IMG/VR virus record: IMGVR_UViG_3300046330_000124
Location: 1-47,900 of that record
Reading direction: 5' to 3' (one strand)
DNA: 47,900 nt
DNA from: a virus
Shown piece by piece: positions 26,564 through 46,473 of this stretch. Position 1 is the stretch's first letter, and each line of letters starts with the position of its first letter. The notes under the pieces are model-generated. The model was given only the letters and a program-made list of their open reading frames with translations. It was not told the DNA's origin and ran no database searches. The translations under genes and the position numbers were made by a program.

Positions 26564-28108
26564 TTAAAAGTCTTTATATGGATCGTATTCCACTTGAGGG
26601 TGGTCTAGTTCGTAAACATCCCTTACCTCTTGTGTAGTATTCTCCGGTAGCCGATCAATTATATGCCTGCTGAACCTTAAAACAAAAGCATCTGACATAT
26701 CTGGAGAACCTCCAACACGCTTTCTAATGTCATCTTTTGGTTCGGCCTGCTTCTTTAATGTTGTTCTGTTTCTCGTGCCTTTAGTCCAGCATAACTCTTT
26801 TTTAAGTTTGTCTCGCCACTCATCTTTTGCAACGTCAATTATTCCACCAGTTGCTAACCACTTCTCCGCCTCGTAATACATCTGCGCTCGCATGTTCTGA
26901 TACTGAGAGTCTTTGAACTCAGGTGTATCATTTGGAGTAGACGCAAAACTTACCAGCTCCCAGTTGTATCTATTTTGTGCTTGAGCAAACGAGAACACCG
27001 CACTACCCTCGGCCTGATCTATCAACACATGATCCACTTTATACTCACGCTCCAACGCACACATCTTCTGATAAGTGTAGACGTGAGTTTGTCCTTCTTC
27101 TTTATTCAATTTATAATAGTCTACAAGTTTTGAATACCGTCCTTGATGGATGAAAATCGCACAGTAATCTCCCCCAGTCCAAGCTAAATCGGCAGTCATT
27201 ATACAAGGTAGAAAGCTTTGAGAACTAATGTCAAAGTCTGTCACACTCATGGCTTGTTCTACACGACTTGCTGATATAATCGAGTCTTTCGACGACTTCC
27301 GCGGTAAACCTCTTACTCGAACCCTAAAGTCATCATGGTCCTCGTTTCCGCCACACTCACGAAGTATCTCGTCAGTGAACGCTTTGGAAACGTGCGATAG
27401 AGTTCGTGTATCAATTCTTACCCCACGCCAATCAGGACTTATCATCTTCTGTTCAAACGCCGACTCTGGATCATCGGAATTGGCCATTGCAAGCCAAACC
27501 TTTATTGTATCCACATCCGTCATCGCACCATTGGCATACTTCCATACAACCGATGGAATACCTGCCGACTCCTCAAACCATAGTAATATTGCATTATTTT
27601 TATTATGAAGTCCTGATATCGCAGCTGGATTATTCTCATCCCAGGTAAATTGATCCGTTCTCCAATTCTCCCTCAACCTCTCATCTCGACTTTTGATCGA
27701 CTCTCCAAGCTTCTCAAACGTCTCGTTAAAGTACCGAGCACGGTTACACCACACGTCCAACTCCGGCCATACTATCGACTTCAACTGACTATGTGTATTG
27801 GCTGTCACTCGTGCTCGCAGCTTTTGAGAATACATGAGCATTATATTTGTCATTGAACCAAAGGCTGTCTTGGCTGATCCATTCCCACTCGACAACGCTA
27901 ACTTATAAGGTATGTCTCTAGTTGCTGGGTCTTTGAAGTGTTTCGACATTAGTCGCCACTCTTGCAGCTGCCAGTCATAAGGAGCAGCGTTCTCAAGGTC
28001 CGTCCCCTCTTCACCAAAAGGAAATATAATGTACACCAGTTTCTCATAGTCGTATCTGTACTTCTCTATCAACTGACCAAACGCTTTGAAGTCTTCCATT
28101 TTACTCAT
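26564..28108 (-). CDS. Terminase large subunit
   Basis: A 514-aa packaging ATPase-nuclease. Walker A-like SSGNGSAKT spans residues 73-81, and ILLWFEES (about 174-181) is the Walker B with catalytic Glu. The RNase H-like nuclease domain shows MTADLAWTGGD (Asp307), VLIDQ (Asp364) and GSPDMSDAF (Asp470/Asp473). The ATG at 28108 is chosen because it overlaps the sigma-factor TGA (ATGA) and has GGAG eight bases upstream; an earlier start inside the sigma gene would be required otherwise. It acts with the small subunit encoded two genes upstream. The packaging mode (direct terminal repeats, cos or headful) cannot be told by eye. Confidence 0.9.
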   Translation of the reverse strand: MSKMEDFKAFGQLIEKYRYDYEKLVYIIFPFGEEGTDLENAAPYDWQLQEWRLMSKHFKDPATRDIPYKLALSSGNGSAKTAFGSMTNIMLMYSQKLRARVTANTHSQLKSIVWPELDVWCNRARYFNETFEKLGESIKSRDERLRENWRTDQFTWDENNPAAISGLHNKNNAILLWFEESAGIPSVVWKYANGAMTDVDTIKVWLAMANSDDPESAFEQKMISPDWRGVRIDTRTLSHVSKAFTDEILRECGGNEDHDDFRVRVRGLPRKSSKDSIISASRVEQAMSVTDFDISSQSFLPCIMTADLAWTGGDYCAIFIHQGRYSKLVDYYKLNKEEGQTHVYTYQKMCALEREYKVDHVLIDQAEGSAVFSFAQAQNRYNWELVSFASTPNDTPEFKDSQYQNMRAQMYYEAEKWLATGGIIDVAKDEWRDKLKKELCWTKGTRNRTTLKKQAEPKDDIRKRVGGSPDMSDAFVLRFSRHIIDRLPENTTQEVRDVYELDHPQVEYDPYKDF

Positions 28109-28578
28109 TTTAAATACTCCAATAACTCTGCACTCACCTTCAACCACCCATGTCTATAGTTGGCTTTAGTCGTGTCATAATTCCATCCATACATCCGACT
28201 CACCTCAACTAAAGGTACACCCTCAACGAGCCGCATCCACACCACTCGTAGTTGCTTCCCCTCTAACCGCTTGGTTAGTATGTCCTCGATGTCACGCATG
28301 TCGAAGTGTCCCATCACTCTTGGGTCATACACTCCGTCGGTCTCCATCGCATCACGCTTGTCGCGTCGTAATGCGTTCTTAGCCATGTTGTGAGCAATGA
28401 TATAGAACCAACCCTTTAGTCGACTCTCATCACCTAACTGCGAAGCTCTCTCGGCCATCCTCACCACCGCATCCGCTACGACATCACGACACCAATGCTT
28501 GTCACGACCATATCGACTGAGCGATCTCTCAATCACACCTCTATGTAAAGCTATCTCACTCCACTGTGCCTCAGTCAT
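28105..28578 (-). CDS. Phage ECF-type RNA polymerase sigma factor
   Basis: A 157-aa protein with the two conserved parts of extracytoplasmic-function sigma factors. Region 2 is at about 29-72 (ADAVVRMAERA, then SRLKGWFYIIAHNMAKNALRR), and region 4 is at about 105-155 (LEGKQLRVVWMRLVEGVPLV, then a turn and SRMYGWNYDTTKANYRHGW). It lies between the two terminase genes with overlaps at both ends (8 and 4 bases). It should direct host RNA polymerase to phage promoters, probably late ones, replacing the missing single-subunit polymerase. The promoter motif is unknown. It could instead act as an inhibitor of host sigma; the intact region 2 and 4 favour a working factor. Confidence 0.85.
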   Translation of the reverse strand: MTEAQWSEIALHRGVIERSLSRYGRDKHWCRDVVADAVVRMAERASQLGDESRLKGWFYIIAHNMAKNALRRDKRDAMETDGVYDPRVMGHFDMRDIEDILTKRLEGKQLRVVWMRLVEGVPLVEVSRMYGWNYDTTKANYRHGWLKVSAELLEYLK

Positions 28579-29242
28579 CTACCTCTACCTTACTTGCCTC
28601 TATAGCAAAGCTATTTTTAATAGGGTCATCGGACAAACGTAGTGTATCTGTTACATCACGACCCAACGCACGCTCCTCCGCCTTAGCCAGCAGTACCGCA
28701 GCCAAGTTCCCACCGATCTCGTGTTTGATAGTGGTCTCGTCTTTAAAGACTCCGTCATATTTCCCGATCATCTCTAGACCACGAAGTTTGTCGTAGAACT
28801 CGATTGTTTTAATGTAACCTGTGTGTACGTCCATACCATTGATGTCCTTCTCCCACACCTCGCGCACGACCATCTTTTTAATAGCACGACGAGTAGAGGC
28901 TGGAATGTCATCAATAGCTTTTACGGTTCCGTCTTTATGGAAGACATCTATCGGGTCATACTGAGCTATCTCATTTGTTCGCTCTAAGATCTCGCTTGCA
29001 TCGAAGTTAGCTTTACGACCGGATATAAGGTTTATCTGTTTGATACACTCCTGTACGTCAGGTTTATTTAGTATTGTTACACCTTGAGTGGGTTTAAGGC
29101 CAACAAGCTTTGCTGCTTCACCTGCGTGTCGACACTGAAGGTAGACGTTGATGAAGCCAACAATTAATGGATCCATAGAGTGTTGCGGTTCCAAGTATTG
29201 ATAGATCAGGGAGTCGATTGTAGGTTGTACAGCTTTATTCAT
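28571..29242 (-). CDS. Terminase small subunit
   Basis: A 223-aa protein with an N-terminal helix-turn-helix region (FINVYLQCRHAGEAAKLVGL, then a following PDVQECI segment, about 30-68) that should bind the packaging site. The blocks YDPIDVFHKDGTVKAIDDIP (about 94-113) and the later IEFYDKLRGLEMIGKY are typical of the Terminase_2 family of podovirus small subunits. It is the first gene of the leftward block, next to the control region. No strong sigma70 promoter is visible directly upstream on its strand. Confidence 0.85.
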   Translation of the reverse strand: MNKAVQPTIDSLIYQYLEPQHSMDPLIVGFINVYLQCRHAGEAAKLVGLKPTQGVTILNKPDVQECIKQINLISGRKANFDASEILERTNEIAQYDPIDVFHKDGTVKAIDDIPASTRRAIKKMVVREVWEKDINGMDVHTGYIKTIEFYDKLRGLEMIGKYDGVFKDETTIKHEIGGNLAAVLLAKAEERALGRDVTDTLRLSDDPIKNSFAIEASKVEVDD

Positions 29243-29720
29243 ATTATTTAATTGTTTGTCGAAGTGGGGGATAGTGTCAAGAGTGTTACAGTGTTTAGGT
29301 TAATAAAATCTAGAGTTTTTACATGTTAAACATTGTAACGTCTGGAAAAGATTGGAAAAATATATCAAAATTTTTTACAGGAAAAAGATTAGGAAAAATT
29401 ACGAAAAATATTGGAGGCCTCCCCACACACCACCGCACAAACTTTATTTTTTGATGCCACCCTAACGATTCTTTTCATCCTCAAACATTTTTCATCACAA
29501 TGTAACACTCGCACCACGTTGTGCATATCTTACAATTCATCATGTAAATCATTCAGTCTTTAAAGTTTTATAACAATTGCACGTGGCATACGACTTGGCA
29601 CACACAATGCAATGTATATCAATACGTTCGATATGACACATTATGCTTAAATATACGACAGCGTAATAGGCTCACCATTGAACGATCGACAACGGACGCA
29701 ACATAAGACAAGGGGATAAA
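29243..29720. promoter_or_regulatory. Divergent control region, left part
   Basis: 478 bases without a convincing gene between the small terminase and the 29721 reading frame. The area is AT-rich with A-runs (29343-29410) and a GGAGGCCTCC palindrome at 29413-29422. It contains scattered relatives of the AAACAWTGTTT motif (AAACATTGTAAC at 29328, ACAATGTAAC at 29497). The same ten bases TGTAACACTC occur rightward at 29501-29510 and leftward at 29290-29281. A TTGACA box lies on the leftward strand near 29270-29280, but no good -10 follows at normal spacing. Likely holds the late promoter and perhaps part of an origin. Confidence 0.5.
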
Positions 29721-29963
29721 TTGAAACATAACCAACAAGACATTAAAGGCAATGAACAAGACATAACGAACGTAAAACTGATCAATGACATTGTGATAAT
29801 GATCCAAAAGATGGAAAATAGTAAACATTGTAACAGTGACCTTAAACATTGTTTATATTTTAAAGACGTACTTAAACAATGTTTACTTGAACGAGACGAA
29901 ACAATGTTTAATATTAGGTTGAAAGCCTTAAACAATGTAATATCTAAACAATGTTTATTGTAA
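29721..29963 (+). CDS. 80-aa reading frame lying within the operator-like repeats
   Basis: An 80-aa frame with TTG start, preceded by AAGGGG six bases upstream. The first 45 residues are ordinary (IKGNEQDITNVKLINDIVIM), but from there the protein is made of repeated KHC or KQC units (SKHCNS, LKHCLY, LKQCLL, SKQCLL) because the AAACAWTGTTT elements run through it. It may be a real early peptide, or a chance frame in a DNA element. The opposite strand holds two hydrophobic frames (29619-29935) that look like mirrors of this sequence. I cannot decide between coding and non-coding. Confidence 0.3.
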   Translation: MKHNQQDIKGNEQDITNVKLINDIVIMIQKMENSKHCNSDLKHCLYFKDVLKQCLLERDETMFNIRLKALNNVISKQCLL

Positions 29964-30055
29964 GTGTTACAATGTAATATCTAAACAATGTTTCACATTA
30001 ACGCGACGAGTCTGCATAAATATGCAAACATTGTTTAAAAAATAAACATTGTCAC
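29823..30055. repeat. Array of AAACAWTGTTT near-palindromes (operator or iteron array)
   Basis: About ten copies of an 11-bp motif that is a palindrome apart from its central base. Copies begin at 29823, 29844, 29874, 29899, 29930, 29946, 29968 (variant TTACAATGTAA), 29983, 30026 and 30044, separated by 15-43 bases. Some copies have one half changed to TGTAA. Such a cluster can be an array of operators for a dimeric DNA-binding protein, or iterons of a replication origin. It lies directly upstream of the rightward promoter and between the two transcription blocks. The 36988-37191 HTH protein is a possible binder, by inference only. Confidence 0.7.
29932..29993. repeat. 25-bp perfect direct repeat
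   Basis: The same 25 bases occur at 29932-29956 and 29969-29993, 37 bases from start to start, with 12 bases between. Each copy joins one ACAATGTAA half-changed motif to one complete AAACAATGTTT motif through the linker TATCT. The second copy begins just after the stop codon of the 29721 frame. The exact identity over the linker shows that the unit is longer than the 11-bp motif. Confidence 0.85.
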
Positions 30056-30075
30056 ACCAAGTCATGACAAAAAAC

Positions 30076-30104
30076 TTGATTTTTTCAAGAAGTCATGCTA
30101 AAAT
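30076..30104 (+). promoter_or_regulatory. Sigma70-type early promoter
   Basis: TTGATT at 30076-30081, a 17-base spacer and TAAAAT at 30099-30104 form a good host-type promoter pointing to the early genes. Transcription would begin near 30111, within the inverted repeat TTATTGTT-T-AACAATAA (30109-30125). The -35 box is inside a small hairpin CTTGA/TCAAG, and the GTCATGAC palindrome at 30061-30068 lies just upstream. The repeat array upstream could control it. Confidence 0.65.
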
Positions 30105-30108
30105 TAAA

Positions 30109-30125
30109 TTATTGTTTAACAATAA
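30109..30125. promoter_or_regulatory. Inverted repeat at the predicted early transcription start
   Basis: TTATTGTT-T-AACAATAA is a palindrome of 8-bp arms around one central base. It covers the expected +1 of the promoter at 30076-30104, the classical place of an operator that blocks initiation. Its AACAAT arm resembles the half-site of the upstream AAACAAT motif, so the same protein may bind. Confidence 0.55.
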
Positions 30126-30194
30126 TGGGTAAAAGGTTATACCTTTGGAGGAGCTTCTCTGAAGCGAAGCCTCCTCAGATAACTTTCCCATTAT
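30122..30194 (+). ncRNA. Structured 5' leader or small RNA element
   Basis: A 73-nt segment closed by a perfect 8-bp stem ATAATGGG (30122-30129) / CCCATTAT (30187-30194). Inside are AAAGGT-TAT-ACCTTT (30132-30146) and GAGGAG (30148-30153) / CTCCTC (30171-30176), which encloses a further GCTTC-TCT-GAAGC hairpin (30153-30165). The strand 30131-30140 can alternatively pair with ATAACTTT (30179-30186), so two folds compete. It is not a tRNA (no T-loop sequence). No U-run follows, so it is not a plain terminator. It would be at the very 5' end of the early transcript. Leader control, RNA stability or an independent RNA are possible. Confidence 0.55.
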
Positions 30195-30326
30195 AAAAAC
30201 GAATACTTTTTAATTTTAGACCTCTAAATGTGAGCTTTAAAACCAATATAGTAGATATGAGATCAAAATCGCTATGCAATGTAATAACTCGCTATTATTA
30301 CACTAACAATAAGAAAAGGGACAATC
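30195..30326 (+). promoter_or_regulatory. Early leader region before first gene
   Basis: The 132 bases between the structured element and the first early gene are AT-rich and hold no gene. A TGCAATGTAATAAC element near 30275 recalls the half-changed repeat motif. The ribosome site AAAAGGG is seven bases before the ATG at 30327. No second clear promoter was found. Confidence 0.4.
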
Positions 30327-30617
30327 ATGAAACAATCCGTAAACAAGTGGACATTCCACGACGCTTTCAAAGGTATTCAATACGAGCGTAATTTCTCATA
30401 TCAAGGATTAAATGTATTATTCGACTATTTAGAATCATACGAACAAGACACCGACACTGAGATAGAGTTAGACGTCACATCACTGTGCTGTGACTATACA
30501 GAGGCTGAAATAGCTACTGTATTGGCTGATTATGGTTATTCAGATATTGACGAGTTGAGAGACAATACGACAGTGATTGAGGTCGATGACGAGACTGTAA
30601 TATATGGAGCGCATTGA
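30327..30617 (+). CDS. First early protein, unknown function
   Basis: A 96-aa acidic protein, the first gene of the rightward block. The start is supported by AAAAGGG upstream. It has a helix-rich N-terminus (WTFHDAFKGIQYERNFSYQG), a pair of adjacent Cys (LCCDY, about 51-55) and a very acidic C-terminus (VIEVDDETVIYGAH). Acidic small early proteins often bind host proteins such as RNA polymerase or nucleases, but nothing in the sequence shows the target. It is followed by the next gene with a two-base gap to ATG. Confidence 0.7.
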   Translation: MKQSVNKWTFHDAFKGIQYERNFSYQGLNVLFDYLESYEQDTDTEIELDVTSLCCDYTEAEIATVLADYGYSDIDELRDNTTVIEVDDETVIYGAH

Positions 30618-36397: not shown

Positions 36398-37000
36398 ATG
36401 AGACCTAAATTACCACGTGCAATGCGTGAAACATACTTAAGTAACTTTAAATTTCCTTACGACTTTAATAAAAACCGAGACTTTTATTTAAACAATAAAC
36501 CGTTTTTAAATCTAATGGTTCAGTTGTTAATCACTCGTGAATTAACTAAGAAAACATTCTTTAGAGGTATTCCAAAAGAGTTTAAAATACGAGACACTGA
36601 TTGGTATCCTGACAATGAGTTGTTACAAGAGAAGCTTCAAATTTATAAACTTGTTCAAGTCTTGTATGTTGGACGAACAAAACCTTACGCTCTTGTTGAT
36701 CTTTTAAAATATGCGTATCGAGTTGATATAGATATTTTTAAATGCACAGAAGACGATAAAGGTAATATTACTTTTGATAATATTAAAATCATGGAAGCTT
36801 GTTTATATAAATTAAACGAGTCCGGTATGGTTGAGATATCTAATTACGAGTACCCTAATGGTGTATCATATCAGTATATAAGACCAAGTATTGCACTTAA
36901 AACAATTAAATCATCTAAGTCAGATATCCGAGTAGCAAACAGAATTAAAACAGCATCAGACAATGTCAAACAAGGTAAGGTTCCGTCGTGGAAAAAATAG
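36398..37000 (+). CDS. 200-aa protein opening the replication module
   Basis: A 200-aa basic protein with a very good ribosome site. It starts MRPKLPRAMRETYLSNFKFP and has a middle region with two helix-rich parts (LVDLLKYAYRVDIDIFKCTE, then IMEACLYKLNESGMVEISNY) that read like a winged-helix DNA-binding domain, the last strand being SYQYIRPSI. The C-terminus is basic. It could be an origin-binding or regulatory protein because it precedes an HTH protein and the helicase. Family not recognised; the wing is inferred from the pattern only. Confidence 0.6.
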   Translation: MRPKLPRAMRETYLSNFKFPYDFNKNRDFYLNNKPFLNLMVQLLITRELTKKTFFRGIPKEFKIRDTDWYPDNELLQEKLQIYKLVQVLYVGRTKPYALVDLLKYAYRVDIDIFKCTEDDKGNITFDNIKIMEACLYKLNESGMVEISNYEYPNGVSYQYIRPSIALKTIKSSKSDIRVANRIKTASDNVKQGKVPSWKK

Positions 37001-37191
37001 AGAAGCAACAATTACTTAACAATTTTTTAACAGGTTTTAATATGTCACCTCAAGACTTTGCAATGCTTATGTCAATGAACAAACTCTCAATTAAATATTG
37101 GTTGAGCGGTGAGCGTGAGATGCCAGACCACGTCGCTAAACTTTTAAATATGTTTATGCGTAATCCAAGTTTGTTGAACGAGTTTTACTAA
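36988..37191 (+). CDS. Small HTH DNA-binding protein
   Basis: A 67-aa protein with GTG start, AAGG eight bases upstream and a 13-base overlap with the gene before. Residues about 16-52 (MSPQDFAMLMSMNKLSIKYW, then LSGEREMPDHVAKLLNMF) show a Cro/XRE-type helix-turn-helix: a first helix, turn, recognition helix and a following W-x-x-G segment. It could repress early transcription through the AAACAWTGTTT sites at 29823-30055; this is inference. The next gene starts with a TAATG overlap. Confidence 0.7.
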   Translation: MEKIEKQQLLNNFLTGFNMSPQDFAMLMSMNKLSIKYWLSGEREMPDHVAKLLNMFMRNPSLLNEFY

Positions 37192-44266: not shown

Positions 44267-46204
44267 ATGCGAAAATACTTAACGTACGACCTTGAGGTCA
44301 TGCCAAATATATTCACGTTCTGTTGTTACATTGAAGACATCAATCAATGGTTTCTTTATGAGATATCTGATCGTAAGGATCAGAAGCAAGAGCTTGTCGA
44401 TTTTTTAAACTGGGCTTGTAAAGAGGACTATTACTTTGTTGGCTATAACAATGTTGGTTTTGACTACGAGTTTCTTCACGCTTTGTTAATGAACTCTTCT
44501 AGATTTACTTGGCAATTTGCTGCTGAGCTTTGTCAAATTTTAATCAGCTGGGATAGAGAACAAAGATTTCCTATTAGATTTAAAGATCGTTTAATTAAAC
44601 AAATAGATTTATATTTGATCAACCACTTCAACAATAAAGCTCGTGCTACGTCACTAAAAGCTTTACAGTTTAACATGCGTTGCGAGTCTGTAGAAGACTT
44701 ACCTTTTGATATCAAACCTTTGACAGACGAAGAGAAAGATATATTGATTCAATACAACTTTCATGATGTTAAAGAAACCCACACCTTCTTTAAAAAATGT
44801 AGACACTTGATAGAAATGCGACACGACCTTGAAGCAACAGGTATGATTTATGGTGACGTATTAAATTACTCAGATGTTAAAATAGGTTCAGAGTTCTTGA
44901 TTAAACAAATAGGTCGAGACAAGTGTTACAAAGACGGACAGATGCTTCAGACTCAACGATACTCTGTTAACTTAAAGGATGTTATACTTCCAAAGATTGA
45001 GTTCCGTGACGACTCTTATGATGAAGTACATGATTGGTTTAGAACACAAACTTGGTACAGAGACAAAGAGAACAACATTAAGTTAGAGAAAACCATCAAT
45101 GGATTTACATTTGACTTCGGTCTTGGTGGACTTCACGCATCAGTTGAGAGTAAAACATTTGTAACAAATGATGAGTGGACTATCGTAGATCTAGATGTTG
45201 CTTCACTTTATCCGAGTATCTCAATTGCTAATAACTTATATCCTGAACACCTGGGTCAGACGTTTGTTGAGAAGTACAAGAACTTAAAAGCTGAACGCTT
45301 TAATCATAAGAAAGGTACACCTTTAAACGCCATGTTTAAATTGGCGTTAAATGGCGCATTTGGTAATAGTAATAACCAATACTCACCGTTCTACGATCCG
45401 AAATACATGTTAAGTATAACCATAAATGGTCAGCTTCAAATCCTTCAATTGGCTGAACAGCTATTCTCAGTCCCTCATGTTGTACCGATCCAAGTTAACA
45501 CCGATGGTATTACCTGTTATGTCAGAAATGATATGCGATATTTATTTAATCTTCATAGAGACGAATGGCAGAAGGACACAGGATTAGAGTTGGAAGAAGT
45601 CGAGTATTCTAAGATGTACATCCGAGATGTAAATTCGTATATGGCACTTACTAAGACAGGTAAGATTAAAGCTAAGGGTGCTTACTGGTATCCCGAAACT
45701 GATTCCGATTATGATGGATTCTGGAATAAGGACTTCTCATCAATGGTAGTGCAAAAGTCTATTCGTCATGTGCTGTTGGATGGTGTTAATCCTCACCACA
45801 TCGTGCGACTGTTCACTGATCCGTATGATTTCATGCTTCGATACAAGACTCCTCCTGGTGCCAAGGTAATGATCGGTGACAAGCCTTGCTCTAAAACTGT
45901 TCGATACTATGTGTCAAAGTCTGGCTTCCCTATGCAGAAGATATCTATTCCGAAAGGTCAGATGGGTACTTGGAAACGTAAGAACTCTCTCAGTGATGAA
46001 TATTTTCAGAGCATCATGAAAGAGATTCCCGAAGGTACATGGGATGCAAGGATTCATACCGCCAACAAATCTAAATACGATACTGTTGTCACTTCGATTG
46101 AATCTGGTAAGCTTGTCAAACATTGTAATGACATCCACAATTTTAATTGGGACGATGTGGACTTCGATTACTATGCAAAAGAAGTGGAGAAGTTAGTCAT
46201 ATGA
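44267..46204 (+). CDS. Family B DNA polymerase, compact
   Basis: A 645-aa replicative polymerase. The proofreading domain is complete: ExoI YDLEV (Asp8, Glu10), ExoII YNNVGFDYEF (60-69) and ExoIII YNFHD (Tyr163, Asp167). Polymerase motif A is VDLDVASLYPSIS (Asp308/Asp310), motif B KLALNGAFG (Lys358-Asn362) and motif C VNTDGI (Asn411-Thr-Asp413), where the usual first Asp is Asn. Only about 48 residues separate A and B, so there is no TPR1-type insert; a protein-primed mechanism is unlikely, consistent with the separate primase. No ribosome site is visible before the ATG, but later starts would remove ExoI. The end overlaps the next gene (ATGA). Confidence 0.85.
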   Translation: MRKYLTYDLEVMPNIFTFCCYIEDINQWFLYEISDRKDQKQELVDFLNWACKEDYYFVGYNNVGFDYEFLHALLMNSSRFTWQFAAELCQILISWDREQRFPIRFKDRLIKQIDLYLINHFNNKARATSLKALQFNMRCESVEDLPFDIKPLTDEEKDILIQYNFHDVKETHTFFKKCRHLIEMRHDLEATGMIYGDVLNYSDVKIGSEFLIKQIGRDKCYKDGQMLQTQRYSVNLKDVILPKIEFRDDSYDEVHDWFRTQTWYRDKENNIKLEKTINGFTFDFGLGGLHASVESKTFVTNDEWTIVDLDVASLYPSISIANNLYPEHLGQTFVEKYKNLKAERFNHKKGTPLNAMFKLALNGAFGNSNNQYSPFYDPKYMLSITINGQLQILQLAEQLFSVPHVVPIQVNTDGITCYVRNDMRYLFNLHRDEWQKDTGLELEEVEYSKMYIRDVNSYMALTKTGKIKAKGAYWYPETDSDYDGFWNKDFSSMVVQKSIRHVLLDGVNPHHIVRLFTDPYDFMLRYKTPPGAKVMIGDKPCSKTVRYYVSKSGFPMQKISIPKGQMGTWKRKNSLSDEYFQSIMKEIPEGTWDARIHTANKSKYDTVVTSIESGKLVKHCNDIHNFNWDDVDFDYYAKEVEKLVI

Positions 46205-46473
46205 AAAGTTTCCTTACAGCACGAGAAAAAGAATTGTTCAGCATGAACGAATTGGAAATCATAAACATACTCGGTAAAAATAAAATGAAGATCAAAGATG
46301 TCAGTGATTCTTTATATGACGGTTATGCCAAACCAGTACACGCAACGGTTGTTACGGCTAACGCTATTAGTCGAATCAATAAGAAATGTATTCATCACAA
46401 ATTAAATTTCAGGGTTTGTTACGATGGGTCAAACGGACGTGGTGGAAAATCGGTTAAATTAAAAATGAGCTAG
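46201..46473 (+). CDS. Winged-helix-like small protein
   Basis: A 90-aa basic protein starting in the ATGA overlap with the polymerase gene; GGAGAAG lies upstream. The pattern MKSFLTAREKELFSMNELEI, then IKDVSDSLYDGYAKPVHATV and ISRINKKCIHHKLNFRV resembles the winged-helix of response-regulator output domains: two helices, recognition helix and C-terminal beta hairpin. The end GGKSVKLKMS fits the wing strand. It may bind DNA and regulate genes or assist the polymerase. No phosphoacceptor domain is present. Confidence 0.6.
   Translation: MKSFLTAREKELFSMNELEIINILGKNKMKIKDVSDSLYDGYAKPVHATVVTANAISRINKKCIHHKLNFRVCYDGSNGRGGKSVKLKMS

Follow-up and report, generated by a model that had tools for sequence, protein, structure and literature searches.

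A clade-wide cluster of ACA-N-TGT palindromes at the early/late gene boundary of uncultured podoviruses, with a small XRE-type protein as candidate binder

Introduction

To our knowledge, little has been learned of how early and late transcription are controlled in the many uncultured podoviruses that have no recognised RNA polymerase gene. The locus described here raises this question: a short palindrome is repeated about ten times between two divergent operons, and we asked which protein reads the repeats and what they do at this place. The window, i.e. the whole stretch of DNA analysed, is an entire IMG/VR virus record (47.9 kb, GC 0.377) from an uncultured, lytic-looking virus of bacteria. 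Podovirus head genes are located on the minus strand, the large terminase subunit (TerL) is about 31% identical to that of epsilon15, and a replication block encoding helicase, primase-polymerase, exonuclease, SSB and DNA polymerase is located on the plus strand. The tyrosine integrase family PF00589 was matched neither in the window nor in 14 relatives, with positive controls; the virus is a podovirus without a detectable tyrosine integrase. Since none was detected, a lysogeny operator of the CI/Cro type, serving temperate immunity, is unlikely. An ECF-sigma-like protein (28105-28578, minus strand; Sigma70_r2, 9e-08) is encoded between the terminase genes and overlaps them; homologues were recovered from G008 and G009 alone, the relatives closest to the window.

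Results

Features of the control region and of the candidate binders are listed in Table 1.

Table 1. Coordinates of the array, the flanking genes, the predicted promoters and the candidate binding proteins in the window.
Feature	Position	Strand	Remarks
Small terminase subunit (TerS)	28571..29242	-	phrog_51; first late gene, divergent from early block
Early/late intergenic region	29243-30326		1,084 bp; contains array
Predicted late promoter before TerS	29251..29280	-	TTGACA-18-AACAAT, consensus match only
Two outlying sites by TerS promoter	29286..29340	.	cores 29288 (ACAGTGT), 29330 (ACATTGT)
Outlying site	29495..29505	.	core 29497
Outlying imperfect site	29786..29796	.	core 29788
Main operator array (putative)	29823..30054	.	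10 ACAWTGT palindromes, 6 perfect AAACAWTGTTT
Predicted early promoter	30076..30104	+	TTGATT-17-TAAAAT, TG before -10; consensus match only
First early gene	30327..30617	+	phrog_9974, function-unknown family
XRE/Cro-type HTH protein, proposed array binder	36988..37191	+	67 aa; conservation, fold, recognition-helix covariation
Winged-helix protein, second candidate binder	46201..46473	+	after DNA polymerase; conserved; less supported

A sequence-only reading of the window had described about ten near-palindromes at 29823-30055. Counting confirmed ten ACAWTGT cores (starting at 29825, 29846, 29876, 29901, 29932, 29948, 29969, 29985, 30028 and 30046), six of them within perfect AAACAWTGTTT copies that occur nowhere else in the record. 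One arm is changed in the four imperfect copies, to TGTAA as had been described or, in the last copy, to TGTCA instead; the context of core 29969 reads GTTACAATGTAAT. The mixed spacing was likewise borne out, the measured distances between centres being 21, 30, 25, 31, 16, 21, 16, 43 and 18 bp, with no single helical phase. As that reading had proposed, the array divides the late from the early block, since it lies between the divergent operons.

Ten of the 20 ACAWTGT cores of the genome fall within 233 bp, i.e. 0.5% of the record (binomial, 1e-18). The intergenic region contains 13 cores, compared to 0.52 expected under a first-order Markov model (maximum 5 in 5,000), and for the perfect copies six were observed and 0.013 expected under the null. 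The clustering of the cores together with both null comparisons excludes a chance origin of the array. Four outlying sites on the late-gene side belong to the same set, and the two located closest to TerS have their centres 11 bp and 53 bp from the predicted TerS -35 element, on its upstream side. When any central base is allowed, 14 of 25 ACANTGT sites are found in the 2.6 kb that precede the gene for the small terminase subunit, where 1.4 are expected; the motif is thus not equally frequent across the genome, which had been named as an observation that would speak against the array.

To collect relatives, single-protein and alignment searches were performed with the large terminase, yielding 65 viral loci. 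Up to 4.2 kb upstream of TerL was surveyed in 55 of these loci and the window, counting every gapped palindrome whose arms are three or four bases long and whose gap spans 0-8 bases, without preselecting a motif. ACA-N-TGT ranked first of 576 three-base-arm palindromes by enrichment upstream of TerL (271 copies upstream versus 73 downstream, 8.2-fold; at least three copies in 28 loci) and AACA-N-TGTT ranked first of those with four-base arms (98 versus 5), although near-duplicate loci in the sample, e.g. L052/L104 and L117/L119, mean that such site and locus counts overstate independence. The largest arrays comprise 20-25 sites (L091, L121); some TerL relatives showed no array in the stretch examined. 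The array therefore recurs upstream of the terminase in relatives, and the expectation that it might be missing from them did not hold.

Motif cores are constant in these genomes, whereas the flanks vary by genome (AAACAnTGTTT, TGAACAnTGTTCA, ATACAnTGTAT). The centre base is A/T in 87% of the sites and the next base outside the core in about 90%. Outer bases are AAAC in the window, TGAAC in G023, G028 and G042, ATAC in G016 and TAC in G022; versions of the site are AAACAATGTTT (window), ATACAATGTAT (G016) and TGAACAATGTTCA (G023). Neighbouring sites in the relatives are preferentially 12-13 bp apart (22 observed versus 4.5 in a jitter null, which reached at most 13 in 500 runs), in contrast to the 16-43 bp found in the window.

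The gene for a small XRE/Cro-type protein is located directly before the helicase gene in the window, inside the early block, and is present in all sampled relatives whose contig has a complete early region. Its AF2 model consists of five helices (pLDDT 94); the modelled fold is of the HTH_3 type with the third helix as recognition helix, as in members of the XRE/Cro-CI family. At E 0.01 the window protein has no Pfam match of its own, and among 13 homologues 11 match HTH_3 and eight match MqsA_antitoxin.

Comparison of the XRE proteins with the sites of the same genomes points to a connection between the two. The residue before the invariant Trp of the recognition helix is Leu in genomes with GAAC flanks (G023, G028, G042; weaker in G025), His in those with TAC flanks (G016, G022, G015) and Tyr in the window with AAAC. 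Only two of 62 alignment columns separate the four GAAC from the three TAC genomes, and both are located in the recognition helix. According to our own alignment, these positions presumably correspond to residues 29 and 33 of the 434 repressor. The combination of GAAC and Leu occurs in two separate branches of the primase-polymerase tree, where G042 (Leu) groups with G010 (Tyr) and G019 (His) with support 100/97, apart from the main Leu group. Judged from these sequences, recognition helix and palindrome flanks seem to change in concert. Seven or eight genomes, with only about two independent origins, underlie the association. Flanks are mixed in G019 (His), and for G009, G010 and G024 (Tyr) the DNA examined contains few sites or none. 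Fixed differences between the same groups are also present in the primase-polymerase (2/625 columns), the helicase (5/528) and the DNA polymerase (3/91). Taken together, the association is good but not conclusive evidence for the XRE protein as binder, and the 67-residue protein is the best candidate.

Two further proteins had been named as possible binders beside the XRE protein, and neither held up to the same degree. The first (36398-37000, 200 aa) was found in a single close relative, G009. The second is the winged-helix protein, which could bind the array as an early/late switch or as a replication regulator. It has a conserved DNA-binding fold (AF2, pLDDT 91) and is present in all relatives having that part of the genome, but no fixed difference tracks the flanks and one Lys column separates the groups partly, so that covariation comparable to that of the XRE protein is not seen. 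Moreover, the protein of G042 has a GRGGK-type wing as in G010- and G016-like genomes, yet G042 has GAAC sites like G023, and a fold search returned generic winged helices only. We regard binding by this protein as unlikely.

The variation of the flanks also bears on the idea that the sites belong to a host regulator, e.g. host LexA, that is exploited or titrated by the phage. Some copies read TTACATTGTAA and formally fit TTACN3GTAA, which we take to be the LexA box of Bdellovibrio. The typical site in the window is, however, AAACN3GTTT, and the flanks vary from one related phage to another in step with a phage protein. Both points disfavour a host regulator, which we consider very improbable.

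Other searches covered the array region, TerS and the host. The array region had no nucleotide match in phage records, TerS as query gave no confirmed relatives, and the terminase alignment had no match in bacterial and archaeal genomes; hence no host genome was found. A direct search for the array in viral contigs gave 26 matches, most of which comprise two or three sites and come from unrelated phages that lack this XRE protein, and L025 (the same contig as L129) was the sole match belonging to the clade of the window. In eight contigs (L021, L022, L027, L028, L029, L030, L037 and L039) a pair of AAACAWTGTTT with flanking C/G is spaced exactly 27 bp apart; the contigs with this pair are unrelated phages (GC 0.43-0.53), and an XRE protein of this family is absent from the stretch examined. 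The DNA polymerase relatives L005-L012 contain no perfect AAACAWTGTTT. No ACA-N-TGT array was present in the scanned parts of Vibrio MZH0603 and Edwardsiella PEi21, which have a related polymerase, and the parts scanned of MZH0603 encode at best a distant Cro-type protein. L005 and L006 (G001, G002) share the replication block with the window (DNA polymerase 52% identical), but nothing in them matches its terminase or head module, a pattern that reads as evidence of module exchange. In the divergent gap between helicase and exonuclease of seven genomes (G015, G016, G021, G022, G023, G026 and G029) ten ACA-N-TGT were counted versus 3.3 expected, some of which are ACA-ATG start-codon contexts.

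Promoters were predicted by consensus, and the matches in this AT-rich region are about as many as expected by chance (8 versus 6.1). The candidate early promoter is located just past the last array site, 27 bp from its centre, which agrees with the earlier statement that the array precedes the early promoter. Many relatives have a TTGACA near TerS. In about nine loci, sites lie 11-75 bp upstream of the -35 element of the predicted TerS promoter and seldom overlap the promoter itself, an arrangement that is more usual for activation than for blockage.

Two additional elements were observed in this region. A leader at 30122-30197 (plus strand), downstream of the early promoter candidate and ahead of the first early gene, is strongly folded (z -3.6) without a U-tract; it had no Rfam match, and the RNA family search of the region returned sub-threshold miRNA models only. 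Another conserved element, about 95 nt long, is found upstream of TerS in 29 of 56 loci (29370-29463, minus strand, in the window) and reads AGGGGGTGGGTCAAAAAT...TGTAAAGGTCG..TCAAAAA..TTGTG..AATTTT, followed by T-rich repeats. It may be a cos/packaging site, since contig L110 starts inside it.

The array had been proposed to be either an operator array or an iteron-type replication origin. In favour of an origin, or of another cluster bound by an initiator, are the density of the repeats, the AT-rich DNA around them, a replisome encoded by the phage and, in the window, a switch of GC-skew sign at the array. In relatives, however, the skew follows the coding strand: there the helicase and primase genes, on the same side of the array but opposite in strand, are opposite in skew, and the proposed skew check does not point to an origin. 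The units are palindromes at mixed spacing and therefore without direction, unlike classical iterons, and the outlying sites adjoin predicted TerS promoters. Iteron origins have direct repeats bound by a Rep initiator and an adjacent rep gene, and no Rep-type initiator was present among the window proteins scanned. We consider an origin quite unlikely, and an additional replication role of the region is possible. The operator alternative is favoured because of the position upstream of the small terminase gene in many genomes, the dyad symmetry and the covariation of flanks and XRE helix.

Discussion

The array is probably an operator cluster for the phage's own XRE protein, located between the rightward early operon and the leftward, terminase-first late operon and acting as an early-to-late feedback switch. 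Each site, a palindrome of 4+3+4 to 5+3+5 bp, would be read by one homodimer. Filling could be cooperative as the regulator accumulates, given that the sites are numerous and, in relatives, frequently 12-13 bp from one another. Build-up of the XRE protein would feed back on the array, which is natural because its gene sits in the early block. A filled array would most likely turn down early transcription, and XRE bound just upstream of the -35 element of the terminase promoter would permit or activate late transcription. This direction is favoured because the sites lie off the TerS promoter and the early promoter candidate is located just past the last site. That the protein binds directly, acts as a dimer, fills the sites cooperatively and regulates in the direction given (early repression, late activation or both) is our inference.

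Neither clustered operators in phages nor small regulators of the XRE type are new in kind. The closest solved relatives of the window protein are HigA2 and MqsA (sequence 5.7e-06 and 2e-04, respectively; fold TM 0.77-0.78). MqsA binds TTAACCT-GGA-AGGTTAA, a palindrome around a 3-bp spacer with a geometry comparable to the array sites (PMC5422877); MqsA and HigA2 use one or two palindromes instead of an array, and a toxin partner was not recognised in the window. C proteins, also close to the window protein among solved structures, are small XRE dimers whose usual 11-bp site, GACTTATAGTC, has the same 4+3+4 layout and which form a cooperative multi-site switch (PMC4321490), but they use two sites of another sequence, and restriction-modification genes were not recognised in the window.

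Aca1 of Pseudomonas phage JBD30, a small XRE-type repressor and HTH dimer, binds GGCACACTGTGCC/GGCACAATGTGCC with an ACA-N-TGT core, and its operator GGCACA-N-TGTGCC shares this centre with the array sites (PMC9410881). The Aca HTH proteins and the window protein have a similar fold (TM 0.67-0.68); sequence similarity is marginal (E 0.45-0.52), and the best Aca match in the PDB is Aca2 (E 0.0088, compared to 0.45 for Aca1). Aca proteins act at one or two sites in one promoter beside the acr gene (PMC9410906), in contrast to the 10-25 sites between early and late operons here. Stoperators of cluster A (L5-like) mycobacteriophages are many copies of one repressor site per genome, with phage-dependent immune specificity (PMC9283540, PMC6550527). 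They are asymmetric and distributed genome-wide inside transcription units, whereas the sites of the window are palindromic and clustered at one control region, which contains all six perfect copies and the 14 ACANTGT sites mentioned above, and no tyrosine integrase was found in the window or the 14 relatives. As far as our searches reach, the novelty lies in a clade-wide clustered array of up to 25 palindromes whose core is fixed and whose flanks differ by lineage, apparently in step with the recognition helix, in phages in which no lysogeny module was detected.

A more far-reaching version is doubtful: a lytic clade would control its early-to-late switch by an ordered cooperative XRE complex on 10-25 operators, and its lineages would drift to private operator codes by paired changes of helix and flanks. 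If true, related phages would be mutually blind or interfere in co-infection, an immunity-like code without lysogeny.

With the 67-residue protein and its short DNA site, one podovirus clade without a recognised RNA polymerase gene gains a concrete candidate regulator-operator pair. One core combined with flanks that differ between lineages makes the clade a natural series for the joint change of operator specificity and recognition helix.
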